Positions 9,763 to 20,554 of a stretch of 20,554 bases of DNA are shown here, in pieces. The notes beneath the pieces are model-generated. The model was not told the DNA's origin. It made no database searches and saw only the letters and a list, made by a program, of their open reading frames with translations. Made by a program: the position numbers and the translations under genes. Within the stretch, counting starts at the first letter, position 1; every line of letters begins with the position of its first letter. The DNA is from a virus, in the IMG/VR virus record IMGVR_UViG_3300042691_027845, positions 1 through 20,554 of that record, one strand, 5' to 3'.

Positions 9763-9985
9763 TATTATTTGCCTCTGTTTCTTTGTCTATTATATATTGA
9801 TTGTATGATGAGATTTCTAATTCATGCAACATCATTACATAATCTTCTAGCCTGTATGCTTTTATATCTCGCACCAGAATATACTTATTGATTAATAACT
9901 TTATCGTAGGTAAGCTAAACATCTTATAGACAGCTAATTTATTCAATGATTCTTCTGATAAATCATTACTGCTGTCTCTTGCTAC
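9755..9985 (-). CDS. -1 frame extension of the tail assembly chaperone (GT-type)
   Basis: This frame has no plausible start of its own. Its first start-like codon is a TTG at 9946 inside the inner stem of the frameshift hairpin, with no Shine-Dalgarno. In contrast, the -1 frame is fully open from the slippery site at 9985-9991 to its stop at 9755. After the shift the chain continues VARDSSNDLSEESLNKLAV and ends 76 residues later, so the fused product has 278 residues. The stop overlaps the tape-measure ATG. In known tails (lambda G/GT, Mu gp41/gp42) the longer product is made rarely and helps wrap or recruit the tape measure before tube assembly. The 63-76 residue length is typical of the T part of small tails. 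Confidence 0.85.
   Translation of the reverse strand, partial: VARDSSNDLSEESLNKLAVYKMFSLPTIKLLINKYILVRDIKAYRLEDYVMMLHELEISSYNQYIIDKETEANNNV
9928..9977 (-). promoter_or_regulatory. Frameshift-stimulating two-stem RNA structure
   Basis: On the minus strand AGACAGC (9971-9977) pairs with GCTGTCT (9928-9934), and inside this AATGATT (9961-9967) pairs with AATCATT (9945-9951) around a nine-base loop. Internal bulges are three and ten bases. The outer stem begins exactly seven bases after the slippery heptamer, the usual spacing for a stimulatory structure that pauses the ribosome. Confidence 0.78.
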
Positions 9986-10590
9986 TTTTTTACTTGCAAT
10001 GACCCAATGATCTTTTTAACTGCACTGCCATATCTTTTTTGTAATATTTGATAAGCTAGTGTGTAAATCTCAATCTTATTAAACAATCCTTGCAATACTT
10101 GAATATTCTCTAAACTATACTTAGCATCACCCTCATATACAGTAACACCAGTAAATACCACTTTTAAAGTTGAATTGATAATATTATTAAAGTATCTTTC
10201 TTTCGCTATATCATATTCTTGTTGAGATAAATTGTTGTTAATATCGCAACTATAATTACCTATGATTGCATTGTTCATAATAGTATTAATAAAATACTCT
10301 ATACTGAATTTTGATGCCATATCTTTTAATGATTCTATGATCTCTTCATTATCAATAAAGCCACCAGATAAAAAAGAATTGAACATAGTCAACAATATTA
10401 AATGCCATATTTTTAATTCACACTCATTAAAGTTTTTATTTACATTGCAAAAACTTAATAACACTGGGTATATATCCATCAAACTATCCTCTGCATTTAT
10501 ATCAGCAATAGTTATTGTTTTACCTTTATATACGATTTGTTCTGGTAATTTCTCATTCATTAATTTATCATAAGACGTTTGGTTGCTCAT
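9982..10590 (-). CDS. Tail assembly chaperone, short (zero-frame) product
   Basis: I place the start at ATG 10590 (MSNQTSYDKLMNEKLPEQ), with AAAAGGA about eight bases upstream; a TTG six codons earlier has no ribosome site. The 202-residue protein is mostly helical and lies between the tube gene and the tape measure, where tail assembly chaperones of contractile and long non-contractile phages are always encoded. Sequence likeness between such chaperones is poor, so the assignment rests on position and on the frameshift signal at its 3' end, which is the hallmark of the class. The short form would be made at a large excess over the 278-residue form. It is an assembly factor and should not be in the finished virion. 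Confidence 0.85.
   Translation of the reverse strand: MSNQTSYDKLMNEKLPEQIVYKGKTITIADINAEDSLMDIYPVLLSFCNVNKNFNECELKIWHLILLTMFNSFLSGGFIDNEEIIESLKDMASKFSIEYFINTIMNNAIIGNYSCDINNNLSQQEYDIAKERYFNNIINSTLKVVFTGVTVYEGDAKYSLENIQVLQGLFNKIEIYTLAYQILQKRYGSAVKKIIGSLQVKK
9985..9991 (-). promoter_or_regulatory. Slippery heptamer A AAA AAG for -1 ribosomal frameshifting
   Basis: The zero-frame codons are GTA AAA AAG TAG, so the heptamer is A AAA AAG, the most efficient type in enteric bacteria (as in dnaX). The UAG stop at 9982-9984 follows immediately. Tandem slippage re-pairs both lysine tRNAs on AAA AAA, and the next codon is GTA in the -1 frame. A stem-loop follows after seven bases. Confidence 0.88.
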
Positions 10591-10613
10591 TGTTTTATTC
10601 CTTTTCAATTAAG

Positions 10614-15024: not shown

Positions 15025-15755
15025 TATTCGCTTACCGCTCCGCCTTTTTCTTTCTCTTCTTTTAATCTCTTGCGATGCTTTAATTCGTTAGTGTACCCTC
15101 TTTCTGCATAGTCAGCATCAGCAGTCACTTGCACAGATCCTTTTCTGCCCCTTGATTCACCCTCAAATACATCTTTAACTTTTATTGTTTCATTCCCTTT
15201 TTCAGACTTTATTCGCTTTTCTTTTTCTTTTGCAGGGTCAAGACCGTCTGCTGTTACATATTCTCTATCTTTAATTACTGCACTGGCTTCTTTTGTAACT
15301 TTGCTATTGGAATCACTGTAAACGGCTTTAATCCAACCTAAACCACCATCAATAGCTTCTATCATATCAGGTCTATAGTTAGGTTTCATGATTACCATTC
15401 CGTTTATAGCTACGCCATGCTTAAATCTATCAAGCATTTCTGGATAATATTTATCTTTCCACTCTTGAGCTGTTACAGGTCTTCTTTCTTTCTCAATCCC
15501 CATTCCTGCTTCATCATAAATAATTACAGTAGGAGCTATTGCGATATATTCACCTTTCGCACGATGAGCTTCTATGTTTTTCTCAATTCCATCAATGATA
15601 ATTTCCCACTCTTTATGAACTTTAGTGATTAATGTTGTTACCAATTCTTCTTGTTCTAATCTAGTAACCCTTCTTAAGTCTGGGATATCTTGCTCATAAT
15701 TGTATTTTGTATAACTTAATGTGTTATGTGTGTTTATTACTTTAAAATCGCTCAT
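15024..15755 (-). CDS. Charged protein of unknown function after the major capsid gene
   Basis: A 243-residue protein that I do not recognise. The ATG at 15755 has AAAAGGA about eight bases upstream. Residues 1-70 are helical, with RLEQEELVTTLITKVHKEWEIIIDGIEKNIEAHR. Residues 75-145 have mixed strands (YIAIAPTVIIYDEAGMGIEKERRPVTAQEWKD; GVAINGMVIMKPNYRPDMIEAIDGG). The last 100 residues are a highly charged Lys/Glu/Arg-rich tail ending LKEEKEKGGAVSE. There is no signal peptide or membrane helix. Its place between the capsid and adaptor genes suggests a head protein or an assembly factor; the charged tail could bind DNA or capsid. No function is claimed. Confidence 0.6.
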   Translation of the reverse strand: MSDFKVINTHNTLSYTKYNYEQDIPDLRRVTRLEQEELVTTLITKVHKEWEIIIDGIEKNIEAHRAKGEYIAIAPTVIIYDEAGMGIEKERRPVTAQEWKDKYYPEMLDRFKHGVAINGMVIMKPNYRPDMIEAIDGGLGWIKAVYSDSNSKVTKEASAVIKDREYVTADGLDPAKEKEKRIKSEKGNETIKVKDVFEGESRGRKGSVQVTADADYAERGYTNELKHRKRLKEEKEKGGAVSE

Positions 15756-17160: not shown

Positions 17161-17790
17161 TTAAACCCCCATTTGATATTTAATACGGCATAAAGATAAC
17201 CCTGTACCGCTGTAAAGAAAAGAATCATTTTGCTTTTGTAACCCAATAGCCATAACAATATAAGGCAACCCAATATAACCTGCTGGAATTTCTGTACCTG
17301 GCAAATAAGCATAGTAGGTCAAAGCGTCTAATGCTGTAGAATTTGCAGTAGGTATTTTCACTGCTACTTTAGCACCTAAAATCAATCCACCTGATTCACC
17401 TGCTTTAATAGCAACTAAATCTGATGCTAGTTGGTTAAGTGGCTGAATAGTAAATTGAACATTTGCTTGATACGATAGAATCTGATCTTGTGGCGTTCTA
17501 AAAGCATCTGCCGTTAATTGTGTTGAGGAATTATCAAATATCGCCATACCTGCAATACCTGCTAAACTATAATCCACATTTGTTGCTTTGTACACTCCGG
17601 TAACGTATAACAATTCTTTGTTATCATACGGACTATTAGAAACAACTGGTGTTGTATCATAATACAATATTTGCGATCCATAATGAATCTCCCCAGAAAT
17701 TGCAGATTGAGTTTGCAAAGCAAGATTACGATTTGTAATCATACCAGGAAAACCTGCTGGGAATTGTTGATTAATTTGAGTTGTTCTCAT
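17161..17790 (-). CDS. Head decoration / structural protein candidate
   Basis: A 209-residue protein whose ATG shares one base with the scaffold stop (TAATG), with GAGGG upstream. It starts MRTTQINQQFPAGFPGMITNRN, followed by beta-rich stretches (EIHYGSQILYYDTT, LLYVTGVYKATNVDYSLAGIAGMAIFD, AKVAVKIPT, YIGLPYIVMAIGLQ). The pattern of short strands with Gly/Ala/Pro turns and the position between protease/scaffold and capsid genes match cement or spike-type decoration proteins, as gpD in lambda. No family signature is visible. It could instead be another head coat component. Confidence 0.58.
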   Translation of the reverse strand: MRTTQINQQFPAGFPGMITNRNLALQTQSAISGEIHYGSQILYYDTTPVVSNSPYDNKELLYVTGVYKATNVDYSLAGIAGMAIFDNSSTQLTADAFRTPQDQILSYQANVQFTIQPLNQLASDLVAIKAGESGGLILGAKVAVKIPTANSTALDALTYYAYLPGTEIPAGYIGLPYIVMAIGLQKQNDSFLYSGTGLSLCRIKYQMGV

Positions 17791-18437
17791 TATCTTTTAC
17801 CCTCATAAGATTTTTTATTATTTTCTACTGAATCATGTGCAACAAAAGAATCAACAGTAATGTGTTCATTGTGCCTTACATAAGCATGAACAGCATCTAA
17901 AGCTACTTTTTTGCTTCTACGATCTAGTTTTTTAGAATCAATACCCAGTGTTGACAATGCTTTGTCCATAGCTAAACTTGGATTAATATTGTCTAATGCT
18001 AAAGTAGAACACCCCATTAACTCGCTGATCTTATGCTTAATTTCAACTTGTTCTTGAGAATCCATAGCTTGTTGAGCCATTTCTTCTTTTACTTGAGCCA
18101 TGATTTCTTTCTTTAATTGAGCTTTCATAGAATCTAAAGAAATAGAATCTTTTGCTTCGGATTTTTTCTTTTCTAACTCTTCCTCTTTTTCAGAATCCTC
18201 AGCCTTTTTGTCCTCATCAGCATCTTTCGCTTCTTCCTCAGCGTCATTTGCTTTTTCTTCTTCCTTTTCAGAATCTTCAACTTTATCTTTTTCTTCACTA
18301 TCTAAAGTAGCCTTTTTCTCTACTTCTTCAATAGTGCTTACAAGAGCTTGTAAATTCCCATTATCCGCAGGTAATCCGTTACTATCGTTAGCAATAGATT
18401 CTGAGAAAACCTGTTTTTGTTGGTTTGTGATAGCCAT
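17790..18437 (-). CDS. Nested scaffold protein from an internal start
   Basis: Inside the protease gene, residue Met 235 (MAITNQQKQVFS) is preceded by AGAGGGG (18444-18450) six bases upstream, stronger than the site at the gene's own start. This gives a separate 215-residue C-terminal product, as Nu3 in lambda comes from gpC. It holds an acidic, Glu/Lys/Asp-rich stretch of about 70 residues that should be extended or coiled, followed by helices (MKAQLKKEIMAQVKEEMAQQAM) and a basic C-terminal part (KKLDRRSKKVALDAVHAYVRHNE). This is a typical scaffold layout. The product would fill the prohead core and be removed by the protease. Confidence 0.68.
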   Translation of the reverse strand: MAITNQQKQVFSESIANDSNGLPADNGNLQALVSTIEEVEKKATLDSEEKDKVEDSEKEEEKANDAEEEAKDADEDKKAEDSEKEEELEKKKSEAKDSISLDSMKAQLKKEIMAQVKEEMAQQAMDSQEQVEIKHKISELMGCSTLALDNINPSLAMDKALSTLGIDSKKLDRRSKKVALDAVHAYVRHNEHITVDSFVAHDSVENNKKSYEGKR

Positions 18438-19139
18438 GCTATTCCCCTCTCTATCAGTTTTATTTAAAATTGGTAATGAATCGGCAACACATGCTGACTC
18501 ACACCGTCCCTCATAGCAGATAGTAACGTGATTACATCTGATATTCGTTTGTTTGAAATCATAGGATTGACCTTTAAATGTACCTTGTTCTGCAACATAA
18601 TCAACTAAATATCCAACAGATAAGCTATCTTTGCCCCCATTCAATACTAAGTCTTTTGCAGAATCAGTCCATACAGCCAGGCTATTGTATAAAGTATCGC
18701 CCATTACGTTTACTTTATCTCCAATTGTTCCTATGACTTCAAAATTTAGATCTAATAATTCTTGATCTCTGTTTTGTGAATTGTTATTAATAACATTATA
18801 TGCTTGTTGAGTTCTATTGAATTTTACATCAATTGATTCTGAATCTACCATTACATGATCTTGTAGTAATGGCAATAAACGATAATATGGTTGGGCTTTT
18901 TTAATTTCAGAAAGTGGTCTGTATACTTGGACTTTGTCCCCATAAGCAAAACCCGCACTTGTGCCAGTTTCTAATGGAAAGTCAACACCGACAGTATATT
19001 CTACTATTTCTTCTTTAGTAAGTACGCAATTATCAACTATAAGACTGCCGTTAGCCTCATTAATGACTCTATTGCTTTTTTTGTCGAATGTAGCATAAGA
19101 TACTACAAAATTTTGATTCACCCCAGTTTGCGTTTGCAT
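17790..19139 (-). CDS. Prohead protease with C-terminal scaffold (DUF2213-like)
   Basis: A 449-residue protein. Residues 13-220 follow the DUF2213 pattern of phage prohead proteases: SYATFDKKSNRVINEANGSLIVDNCVLTKEEIVEY, then LLPLLQDHVMV (His 95), NFEVIGTIGDK (the VG step), and DSLSVGYLVDYVAEQGTFKGQSYDFKQTNIRCNHVTI. The last has Ser 174 in the S-x-GY motif and an NHV strand. His 95 and Ser 174 are the expected catalytic pair; I do not identify the third residue. Residues 270-340 are acidic and the remainder is the scaffold (see internal start). The ATG at 19139 has only an A-rich stretch upstream and lies behind the structured gap 19140-19311. It should cleave itself, the scaffold and possibly the capsid protein. 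Confidence 0.8.
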   Translation of the reverse strand: MQTQTGVNQNFVVSYATFDKKSNRVINEANGSLIVDNCVLTKEEIVEYTVGVDFPLETGTSAGFAYGDKVQVYRPLSEIKKAQPYYRLLPLLQDHVMVDSESIDVKFNRTQQAYNVINNNSQNRDQELLDLNFEVIGTIGDKVNVMGDTLYNSLAVWTDSAKDLVLNGGKDSLSVGYLVDYVAEQGTFKGQSYDFKQTNIRCNHVTICYEGRCESACVADSLPILNKTDREGNSMAITNQQKQVFSESIANDSNGLPADNGNLQALVSTIEEVEKKATLDSEEKDKVEDSEKEEEKANDAEEEAKDADEDKKAEDSEKEEELEKKKSEAKDSISLDSMKAQLKKEIMAQVKEEMAQQAMDSQEQVEIKHKISELMGCSTLALDNINPSLAMDKALSTLGIDSKKLDRRSKKVALDAVHAYVRHNEHITVDSFVAHDSVENNKKSYEGKR

Positions 19140-19152
19140 AATTCTTTTTTTT

Positions 19153-19278
19153 ATATTATACTTGCCTTGGTCTCAGTTCCTTGATTTGCTCATTGTGCTG
19201 AGACCGGCCTTAGAGGGGGTGAGACTCTAAGGATTAATTGCTCTAGAGGTTTATCTTATATTACTCTAGAGCTTTTTT
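19153..19278 (+). ncRNA. Candidate small structured RNA ending in an intrinsic terminator (plus strand)
   Basis: On the plus strand a -10-like TATACT begins at 19157, with a weak TTGCAT 17 bases upstream. Three perfect-stem hairpins follow in 105 bases. Stem 1 is GGTCTCAG (19169-19176) with CTGAGACC (19198-19205), extendable by GCC/GGC across a two-base bulge. Stem 2 is CCTTAGAG (19208-19215) with CTCTAAGG (19225-19232). Stem 3 is GCTCTAGAG (19240-19248) with CTCTAGAGC (19264-19272), and six T follow at 19273-19278. The region is richer in G+C than its surroundings. A plus-strand RNA would be the only one in the window. On the minus strand the same bases are a structured leader of the protease gene. 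Which strand matters is not settled. Confidence 0.4.
19240..19278 (+). terminator. Intrinsic terminator, plus-strand orientation
   Basis: The nine-base perfect stem GCTCTAGAG / CTCTAGAGC with a 15-base loop is followed directly by TTTTTT. On the minus strand the A-run comes before the stem and AATTAATCC follows, so it should not stop the head operon. A terminator facing against all visible genes could end a plus-strand small RNA or insulate the late operon from antisense transcription. Confidence 0.6.
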
Positions 19279-19285
19279 ACTTTCT

Positions 19286-19302
19286 GGCTTGGGTGAAAAG
19301 CC
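19286..19302. repeat. Fourth small hairpin of the intergenic cluster
   Basis: GGCTT (19286-19290) and AAGCC (19298-19302) form a perfect five-base stem with a seven-base loop, 13 bases past the T-run and just after the stop of the upstream gene. No T-run follows on either strand. It is short and could be chance, but it lies in line with three stronger hairpins. Confidence 0.35.
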
Positions 19303-19311
19303 AATTACTTA

Positions 19312-20016
19312 CTATTTATTATTATCAATGATTTTATCTAATTCATTCTTTATTTCTTTTAATATTTCATTTTTAAGAAATTGATTATTTAATTTTAATA
19401 CATCATCAAAAATGTTTTCTTTTGTAGACGTCTGCTTTTTATCAAAAGTCATTCTTCTTATTAAGGTATCTAACAATTCATCTTTAAAAGAATTGGGTAA
19501 TTGCTTGACTATACTAAAAATAGCCAATAAAGTATAATGATTCCAATCATTGATTTCATCAACTAAATTATATATAAAATCTTGATTATCTCGTGATTTT
19601 TCAACAAGACTAAGACCAAGATCTTCGCCTATTTCTTTAAATTTTAATTCACATGGTTTAAAAGGTCTAAAAGCATAATTTTCTTTATTTGTAGAAAAAC
19701 ACATTTTAGTAAAACTCTTATTGCTTAATTGTTCTTGTACTTTCTCTAAATCGGTATCATCATGCCCGCATTTAATTGGAGACAAATAAGCATTATATAA
19801 AGTAAATACTGTGTTTTTATCTTTAAGCTTTTTTAGTTTTATGTCCATGGGTACATTTGATTGTTTTTTTAAATCTATATCACAATCTTCTTCTTGTGCA
19901 TGTCGATTTTTTTCTCTTTCAAGAATATCGGTAGCAAAATCTTTTATTTCTTCAATCGACATATTACACAAACCTTCAAGATACTCTCTCTCTGGATTAT
20001 ATTCTTTTTTGCTCAT
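19312..20016 (-). CDS. Unrecognised 234-residue protein inserted in the head module
   Basis: I do not recognise this gene. The ATG at 20016 has AAAAGGA about seven bases upstream, and the upstream stop lies 12 bases before. The product is hydrophilic and mainly helical: residues 15-45 (LCNMSIEEIKDFATDILEREKNRH), a middle part with several Cys (LSPIKCGHDD, FTKMCFST, FKPCELKF), and a Lys/Asn/Glu-rich C-terminal helix region (ENIFDDVLKLNNQFLKNEILKEIKNELDKIIDNNK). There is no signal peptide and no membrane segment. It sits between a minor head gene and the protease, with a hairpin-rich gap after it, which is more like an inserted cargo gene than a core virion part. Function is unknown; an injected or conversion protein is one guess. 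Confidence 0.6.
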   Translation of the reverse strand: MSKKEYNPEREYLEGLCNMSIEEIKDFATDILEREKNRHAQEEDCDIDLKKQSNVPMDIKLKKLKDKNTVFTLYNAYLSPIKCGHDDTDLEKVQEQLSNKSFTKMCFSTNKENYAFRPFKPCELKFKEIGEDLGLSLVEKSRDNQDFIYNLVDEINDWNHYTLLAIFSIVKQLPNSFKDELLDTLIRRMTFDKKQTSTKENIFDDVLKLNNQFLKNEILKEIKNELDKIIDNNK

Positions 20017-20028
20017 TGTATTGTCCTT

Positions 20029-20554
20029 TTAATCTAATTTTAAAACCATAACACTATAACACGTACAATTTATTTTTTCAGCTGGAAATATGTATTCCCC
20101 ATCTATTAAACAACCTTTGTCAAGTTCAAACATTTTATTATTTGCCTCTAAGTGAGATTTTCTAGGTTGTTTATCTCCAAAGCTATGCTTCCACATATTA
20201 TACTTAATACCTAAATCCTTTTGCCTTGCTGTGCTTATTGCACTTGTGGCTTTGTTGATTTGATCGTATGCAATGCGTTTAGCTCGTGCTTTTGTGATAT
20301 TTTCGTACTTAATCAACTGCTCTGTCAAGTATTTTTTATCTCTACCACGCATTGATGCTTCCATTACGTCTCTTAATATGCTCTTTTGTACATCTTGCGG
20401 TATGTTTCTAATTAGTGCTACATTCTGAGCAATCAACGCTTCTTGGGATATTAGAGCATTCTCAGCATTCTCACTAAATGGCACGTACCAGTTACTTTCT
20501 TTTAACCCTCTTTTAGTAGCCTGAGTAACTAGCACAACATGCTTATCAACTTTA
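20029..20554 (-). CDS. Minor head protein, Mu gpF-like, partial (N-terminus outside window)
   Basis: The frame is open to the right edge, so a GTG at 20535 is not a real start and the N-terminal part is missing. The visible 175 residues match the C-terminal domain of Mu gpF-type head morphogenesis proteins: a helix YLTEQLIKYENITKARAKRIAYDQINKATSAISTARQKDLGI, then MWKHSFGDKQPRKSHLEANNKMFELD and a closing FPAEKINCTCYSVMVL. The pattern is R-A-x-x-I-A..Q...N, W-x-x-x-x-D-x-x-PR-x-SH, and P-x-E-x-x-NC-x-C. Members are a few copies per head, near the portal, and serve in prohead assembly. It marks the start of the head module; portal and terminase genes should lie just to the right. Confidence 0.85.
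   Translation of the reverse strand, partial: KVDKHVVLVTQATKRGLKESNWYVPFSENAENALISQEALIAQNVALIRNIPQDVQKSILRDVMEASMRGRDKKYLTEQLIKYENITKARAKRIAYDQINKATSAISTARQKDLGIKYNMWKHSFGDKQPRKSHLEANNKMFELDKGCLIDGEYIFPAEKINCTCYSVMVLKLD

Follow-up and report, generated by a model that had tools for sequence, protein, structure and literature searches.

Results

The window, by which we mean the whole 20.5-kb virus record that was analyzed, carries head, neck, sheath, baseplate, and tail-fiber genes of a contractile-tailed phage. Adjoining the tail-fiber genes, a minus-strand gene at positions 693 to 1319 has a lipoprotein-like signal (SLVSCVGH) and gave no Pfam match. In the head operon a noncoding gap at positions 19140 to 19311 separates the head maturation protease gene from an orphan gene, P0001, which lies next to a MuF-like gene. 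We call the space between the MuF-like and protease genes the slot.

17790 to 19139, minus strand: head maturation protease gene (phrog_2229, E-value of 1e-34; PF09979), the right border of the slot
19312 to 20016, minus strand: P0001, an orphan cargo gene (234 amino acids), convergent with the RNA predicted below and its possible target
20029 to 20535, minus strand: MuF-like head morphogenesis gene (phrog_324, E-value of 6e-44; PF04233), the left border of the slot

P0001 found no match in Pfam, PHROGs, PADLOC, the PDB, phages, or plasmids, and its structure model, with a pLDDT of 35, was too poor to be of use. Its G+C content of 25% is the lowest in the window.

The space between the two border genes varied widely in 62 relatives, from an overlap of 83 bp to a distance of 4043 bp. 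The slot measured at most 132 bp in 36 of the 62, many of them with overlapping genes; the other 26 had slots of 179 to 4043 bp that contained a variety of open frames. Cargo in relatives includes HNH endonucleases and unknown genes, on either strand. Aeromonas phages 4_D05 and 2_D05 carry opposite-strand cargo genes in the slot, as does L046, and matches to phrog_26870 and phrog_9174 were obtained for the genes of 4_D05 and L046. The opposite-strand cargo of L005 (1986 to 2882) and L046 (3513 to 4496), two distant phages, falls into the same PHROG families (26870, 9174, and 16943), and we therefore regard a reversed cargo gene as a recurring arrangement in the slot. A sense-strand terminator closes the cargo before the protease gene in Acinetobacter phage Acjo_20 (L004) and in L053, and an antisense terminator adjoins the MuF-like gene in 4_D05. 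Judged from these genomes, the MuF-protease junction is a variable cargo slot in many contractile-tailed phages, a point that is new relative to the initial annotation of this DNA. Given this variability, the gap and P0001 together are best seen as cargo of the slot, a view with which the low G+C content of P0001 agrees. The initial annotation had stated that nothing known at this locus explains the gap; the recurrent cargo slot, with opposite-strand genes in 4_D05 and 2_D05, now explains it in part.

The gap holds the following hairpins.

19169 to 19205, plus strand: hairpin 1, a perfect inverted repeat of 8 bp (19169-19176/19198-19205) with a 21-nt loop
19208 to 19232, plus strand: hairpin 2, a perfect inverted repeat of 8 bp (19208-19215/19225-19232) with a 9-nt G-rich loop
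19240 to 19272, plus strand: stem 3, 9 bp (19240-19248/19264-19272) with a 15-nt loop
19286 to 19302, no strand assigned: hairpin 4, of 5 bp, which the predicted RNA does not include

All the elements described earlier, namely, three perfect hairpins (8, 8, and 9 pairs) and one shorter hairpin, were found between 19140 and 19311. The gap, 172 nt long, is the largest intergenic space in the window; the next are about 104 nt (589 to 692) and 47 nt (1320 to 1366). Its sequence is single copy within its own contig. When the gap was shuffled with its dinucleotides preserved, stems of at least 8 bp were absent from 2,895 of 3,000 sequences, occurred singly in 101 and in pairs in 4, and never numbered three (0/3,000). 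Length alone is not rare, as the AT-rich window has 18 stems of at least 8 bp in total versus 4 to 18 in shuffles. The stems of the gap are richer in G/C, with 5, 4, and 5 per arm compared with 0 to 4 in the other 15 stems of the window (0 to 3 in 14 of the 15). The predicted fold is unambiguous, all 25 stem pairs having a pair probability above 0.98. These results together, the absence of three stems from the shuffles, the G/C-richer arms, the unambiguous fold, and the length of the gap, confirm the hairpin observation.

Each stem is more stable as plus-strand RNA. Hairpin 1 has an energy of −16.5 kcal/mol on the plus strand versus −14.4 on the minus strand, hairpin 2 has −10.3 versus −8.8, and the three stems sum to −40.3 versus −35.2 kcal/mol. 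The z-score of the minimum free energy is −4.3 on the plus strand (positions 19160 to 19285) and −5.8 on the minus strand (entire gap).

Around the hairpins lie further elements that bear on the direction of transcription.

19133 to 19162, plus strand: promoter-like site from a consensus scan (TTTGCA, 18-nt spacer, TATACT)
19155 to 19160, minus strand: TATAAT, overlapping the plus-strand −10 element, a possible shared bidirectional promoter before the protease gene
19240 to 19278, plus strand: intrinsic terminator-like site, hairpin 3 followed by TTTTTT
19169 to 19279, plus strand: predicted small RNA of about 111 nt (3′ end approximate), its hairpins being in register with both the promoter-like site and the T-run

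The TATACT that had been noticed ahead of the first stem is present at 19157 to 19162, and the start predicted from it, 19169, falls exactly where stem 1 begins. The promoter-like site agrees with the consensus at 9 of 12 positions and its −35 element is poor (4/6). The six T's reported behind stem 3 on the plus strand only are likewise there (19273 to 19278), and a scan of both strands of the whole 20.5-kb window turned up no second candidate with nine pairs and six T's. As a sequence, hairpin 3 with its T-run qualifies as an intrinsic terminator of a short structured RNA; a standard terminator scan missed it because of its unusually long loop (15 nt). We also asked how often a promoter-like site stands 5 to 8 nt upstream of a 104-nt block with a T-run directly behind it. 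This layout occurred at 7 of 20,364 plus-strand positions (0.03%) and at none of 20,364 minus-strand positions, which is supportive rather than proof because the A-rich coding strand makes T-runs four times as frequent on the plus strand as on the minus strand, and because the test was designed after the feature had been seen.

The overlapping −10 elements allow a different reading, in which the minus-strand TATAAT (19160 to 19155) and the plus-strand TATACT form a symmetrical promoter for the protease gene, with the plus-strand terminator doing no more than stopping divergent transcription before the cargo gene. In E. coli, bidirectional promoters that share a −10 element are common and give rise to 19% of the RNAs detected (PMC12825309), and the terminator ahead of the protease gene in Acjo_20 (L004) and L053 suggests a fresh promoter at that gene. 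However, the minus-strand element has no acceptable −35 element, the promoter scan having missed it even at 8/12, and hairpins 1 and 2 would have no explanation. We consider this arrangement improbable.

Alternatively, the stems could act in the minus-strand transcript of the head operon, either as a processing or stability barrier between P0001 and the protease gene or as an antitermination element of the put type. The gap does sit between two genes of one operon, the stems fold on the minus strand too and with the stronger z-score (−5.8), and the put RNA of phage HK022 consists of two stem-loops in about 70 nt (PMC9378689). On the other hand, such a role would explain neither why the T6 lies on the opposite strand nor why the promoter-like site of the plus strand is in register, no sequence or Rfam match was found, and put works near an early promoter, whereas the hairpins of the gap are inside the head operon. 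The hairpins also leave access to the protease start unchanged. We consider an element of the sense strand possible but unlikely.

The last of these observations bears as well on the structured leader that had been proposed to control the protease gene. The ribosome site of this gene is indeed weak, its A-rich leader having no Shine-Dalgarno sequence. Yet pairing around the protease ATG is weak and does not depend on whether the hairpin region is available; since the hairpins do not occlude the start, the idea of leader control has no structural support.

The RNA had been called antisense to nothing visible, a description that no longer holds. In any head-operon transcript that reads through, the spacer is exactly complementary to the predicted RNA, whose first loop also matches the start region of the adjoining cargo gene.

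19185 to 19197, plus strand: loop-1 complementary stretch, TTTGCTCATTGTG (12 bp and one G-U)

This stretch is complementary to ACAATGAGCAAA around the P0001 start codon at 20016, with further loop 1 matches of 11 nt at the ATG at 10590 and of 9 nt at 15755. Loop 1 matches three starts because the three minus-strand genes concerned (20016, 15755, and 10590) have a common start context, AAAAGGA-spacer-ACAATGAGC. For the gene at 9982 to 10608 the true start is probably not the listed TTG but the ATG at 10590, which has a better ribosome site. Inside hairpin 1, the minus strand holds a six-codon frame, ATGAGCAAATCAAGGAACTGA (MSKSRN; 19176 to 19193), without a Shine-Dalgarno sequence, which we take as a consequence of the start-like repeat.

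Among 1,500 shuffled RNAs, 2 matched any start by 12 nt and 4 matched three starts by at least 9 nt. Of real minus-strand segments, 6 of 547 (1.1%) contain a 12-mer that matches across the start codon of another gene, and exact 11- to 13-nt matches of the gap to meaningless places are also present. Other loop and spacer segments compared with gene starts on both strands gave a few matches at a background of 0.5 to 3%, as expected from many comparisons. A cofold calculation did not favor an RNA-mRNA duplex, loop-loop pairing being beyond that method. The complementarity of loop 1 to P0001, at a chance level of about 1% that is uncorrected for the number of ideas tried, is suggestive.

The same repeats could be read at the level of DNA, as palindromes used by a protein or as a mobile-insertion remnant or scar of gene swaps at the end of the cargo. 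Foreign genes enter the slot, HNH endonucleases included; the window has just two copies of the palindromic CTCTAGAG, 23 bp apart and both within stem 3; and the direct repeat ACAATGAGCAAA bounds P0001. But two other genes have ACAATGAGC as their start context as well, so that the direct repeat needs no insertion scar. Moreover, the three stem sequences are unrelated rather than repeats of one site, and the collections searched held no other copy of the element. We find a DNA site or remnant hard to favor and give it a small chance.

In searches with the gap DNA, phages gave only chance-level matches of 32 to 35 nt, in Xenohaliotis phages (E-value of 0.8), and plasmids gave no match. A two-stem-arm pattern matched 44 viral contigs, none of which had the hairpins (0/44). 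No Rfam family reached gathering; the best was FtrB, on the minus strand, with 17.4 bits versus the 66 required (E-value of 2.4), and a put-type RNA gave no match to the candidate within Rfam. A tRNA or tmRNA was ruled out by search, and a hidden protein was ruled out by the frames that overlap the gap, which have only 22 to 31 codons and all start from TTG. Among the matches listed, no close relatives of the window were found in IMG/VR, GTDB contigs, or phage and plasmid records. These collection scans used the window proteins and one protease alignment and listed only distant protease relatives; as the single-protein scans require exact 8-residue words, closer relatives could be missed. Distant relatives are common for both the protease (about 24 to 46% identity over the best segment) and the MuF-like protein (about 30 to 43% identity).

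Discussion

Phages are known to encode small antisense and intergenic RNAs, such as sar and sas of P22 and OOP of lambda (PMC5415839, PMC12197685). Intergenic RNAs of P22 also lie directly upstream of head genes (PMC13397905), and pairing of sar blocks the initiation of ant translation (PMC12197685). A small-RNA gene is the best-supported reading of the hairpin cluster, and its product would probably be a regulatory RNA belonging to a broad class already known. The promoter-like site, the first stem, and the terminator combine into a single plus-strand unit of about 111 nt; the initial annotation had suggested an RNA of about 105 bases. The small-RNA reading is also favored because its sense-strand rivals leave unexplained a terminator that faces against every gene. 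That the cluster is a stand-alone plus-strand small-RNA gene carried as cargo of the variable slot is a proposal to which we give about an even chance.

Under this small-RNA proposal, transcription would be driven by the TATACT site, would begin with the first base of hairpin 1 (about 19169), and would end at about 19279, past hairpin 3 acting as an intrinsic terminator; both events we infer from the DNA. The product would probably be an antisense or small RNA that resembles P22 sar in its logic and acts on the neighboring gene. Like sar and OOP it would be short (68/69 and 77 nt there and about 111 nt predicted here), with a terminator-like site and a promoter-like site of its own on the strand opposite to the phage operon. 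Unlike the candidate, which sits in a cargo slot of the head operon, sar and OOP lie in regulatory regions and overlap their targets. The start of the possible target is 0.8 kb away from the candidate RNA.

As an antisense regulator, the RNA might pair through loop 1 with the P0001 start codon (12 bp and one G-U), and the whole RNA could also pair with the read-through spacer of the head-operon transcript. We infer that in the presence of the RNA P0001 would be translated little or its transcript would be cut. Taken alone, the proposal that P0001 is the target is doubtful.

The convergent layout recalls the par/fst locus of pAD1 (RNA I/RNA II), where a small RNA also lies beside a gene and direct repeats complement the translation start (PMC7472228). 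In contrast to the small hydrophobic peptide of par/fst, however, P0001 is a charged protein of 234 amino acids with no family match. The terminator, its T-run being confined to the plus strand, points one way rather than being shared and bidirectional, and there is a single 12-nt repeat (ACAATGAGCAAA) in place of DRa and DRb, with no known toxicity. A par/fst type I toxin-antitoxin locus as such is ruled out by the protein type and the one-directional terminator. A looser version would have the head operon of a phage carry, as cargo, a convergent RNA/gene pair that resembles par, with the RNA silencing P0001, and possibly two more phage genes with a ACAATGAGC start, through one loop that reads the shared start sequence; this we regard as very unlikely. 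If it were true, the RNA would recognize a translation-start motif that recurs in its own phage.

Three other systems share single traits with the candidate. STnc6030 of prophage BTP1 is also an antisense RNA in a region of phage structural genes, with a proposed role in superinfection exclusion (PMC12197685), but it is 786 nt long and antisense to a tailspike gene, and there is no sign of a prophage or of exclusion here. The cargo of 4_D05 and 2_D05 likewise occupies the MuF-protease slot and is transcribed against the head operon from beside the protease start; it encodes proteins (with matches to phrog_26870 and phrog_9174 in 4_D05), whereas the candidate is an RNA. Adjacent stem-loops in a phage transcript are also found in HK022 put, which differs in its size of about 70 nt, its two stem-loops, and its place on the sense strand of early operons (PMC9378689).

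In summary, the element is a well-formed candidate RNA rather than a demonstrated one. Should it prove to be transcribed, a late head operon would be carrying a phage small RNA as cargo. Accessory genes recur at the MuF-protease position in many phages, and RNAs are easily overlooked there. The MuF-protease slot of other phages is therefore worth checking for noncoding cargo.
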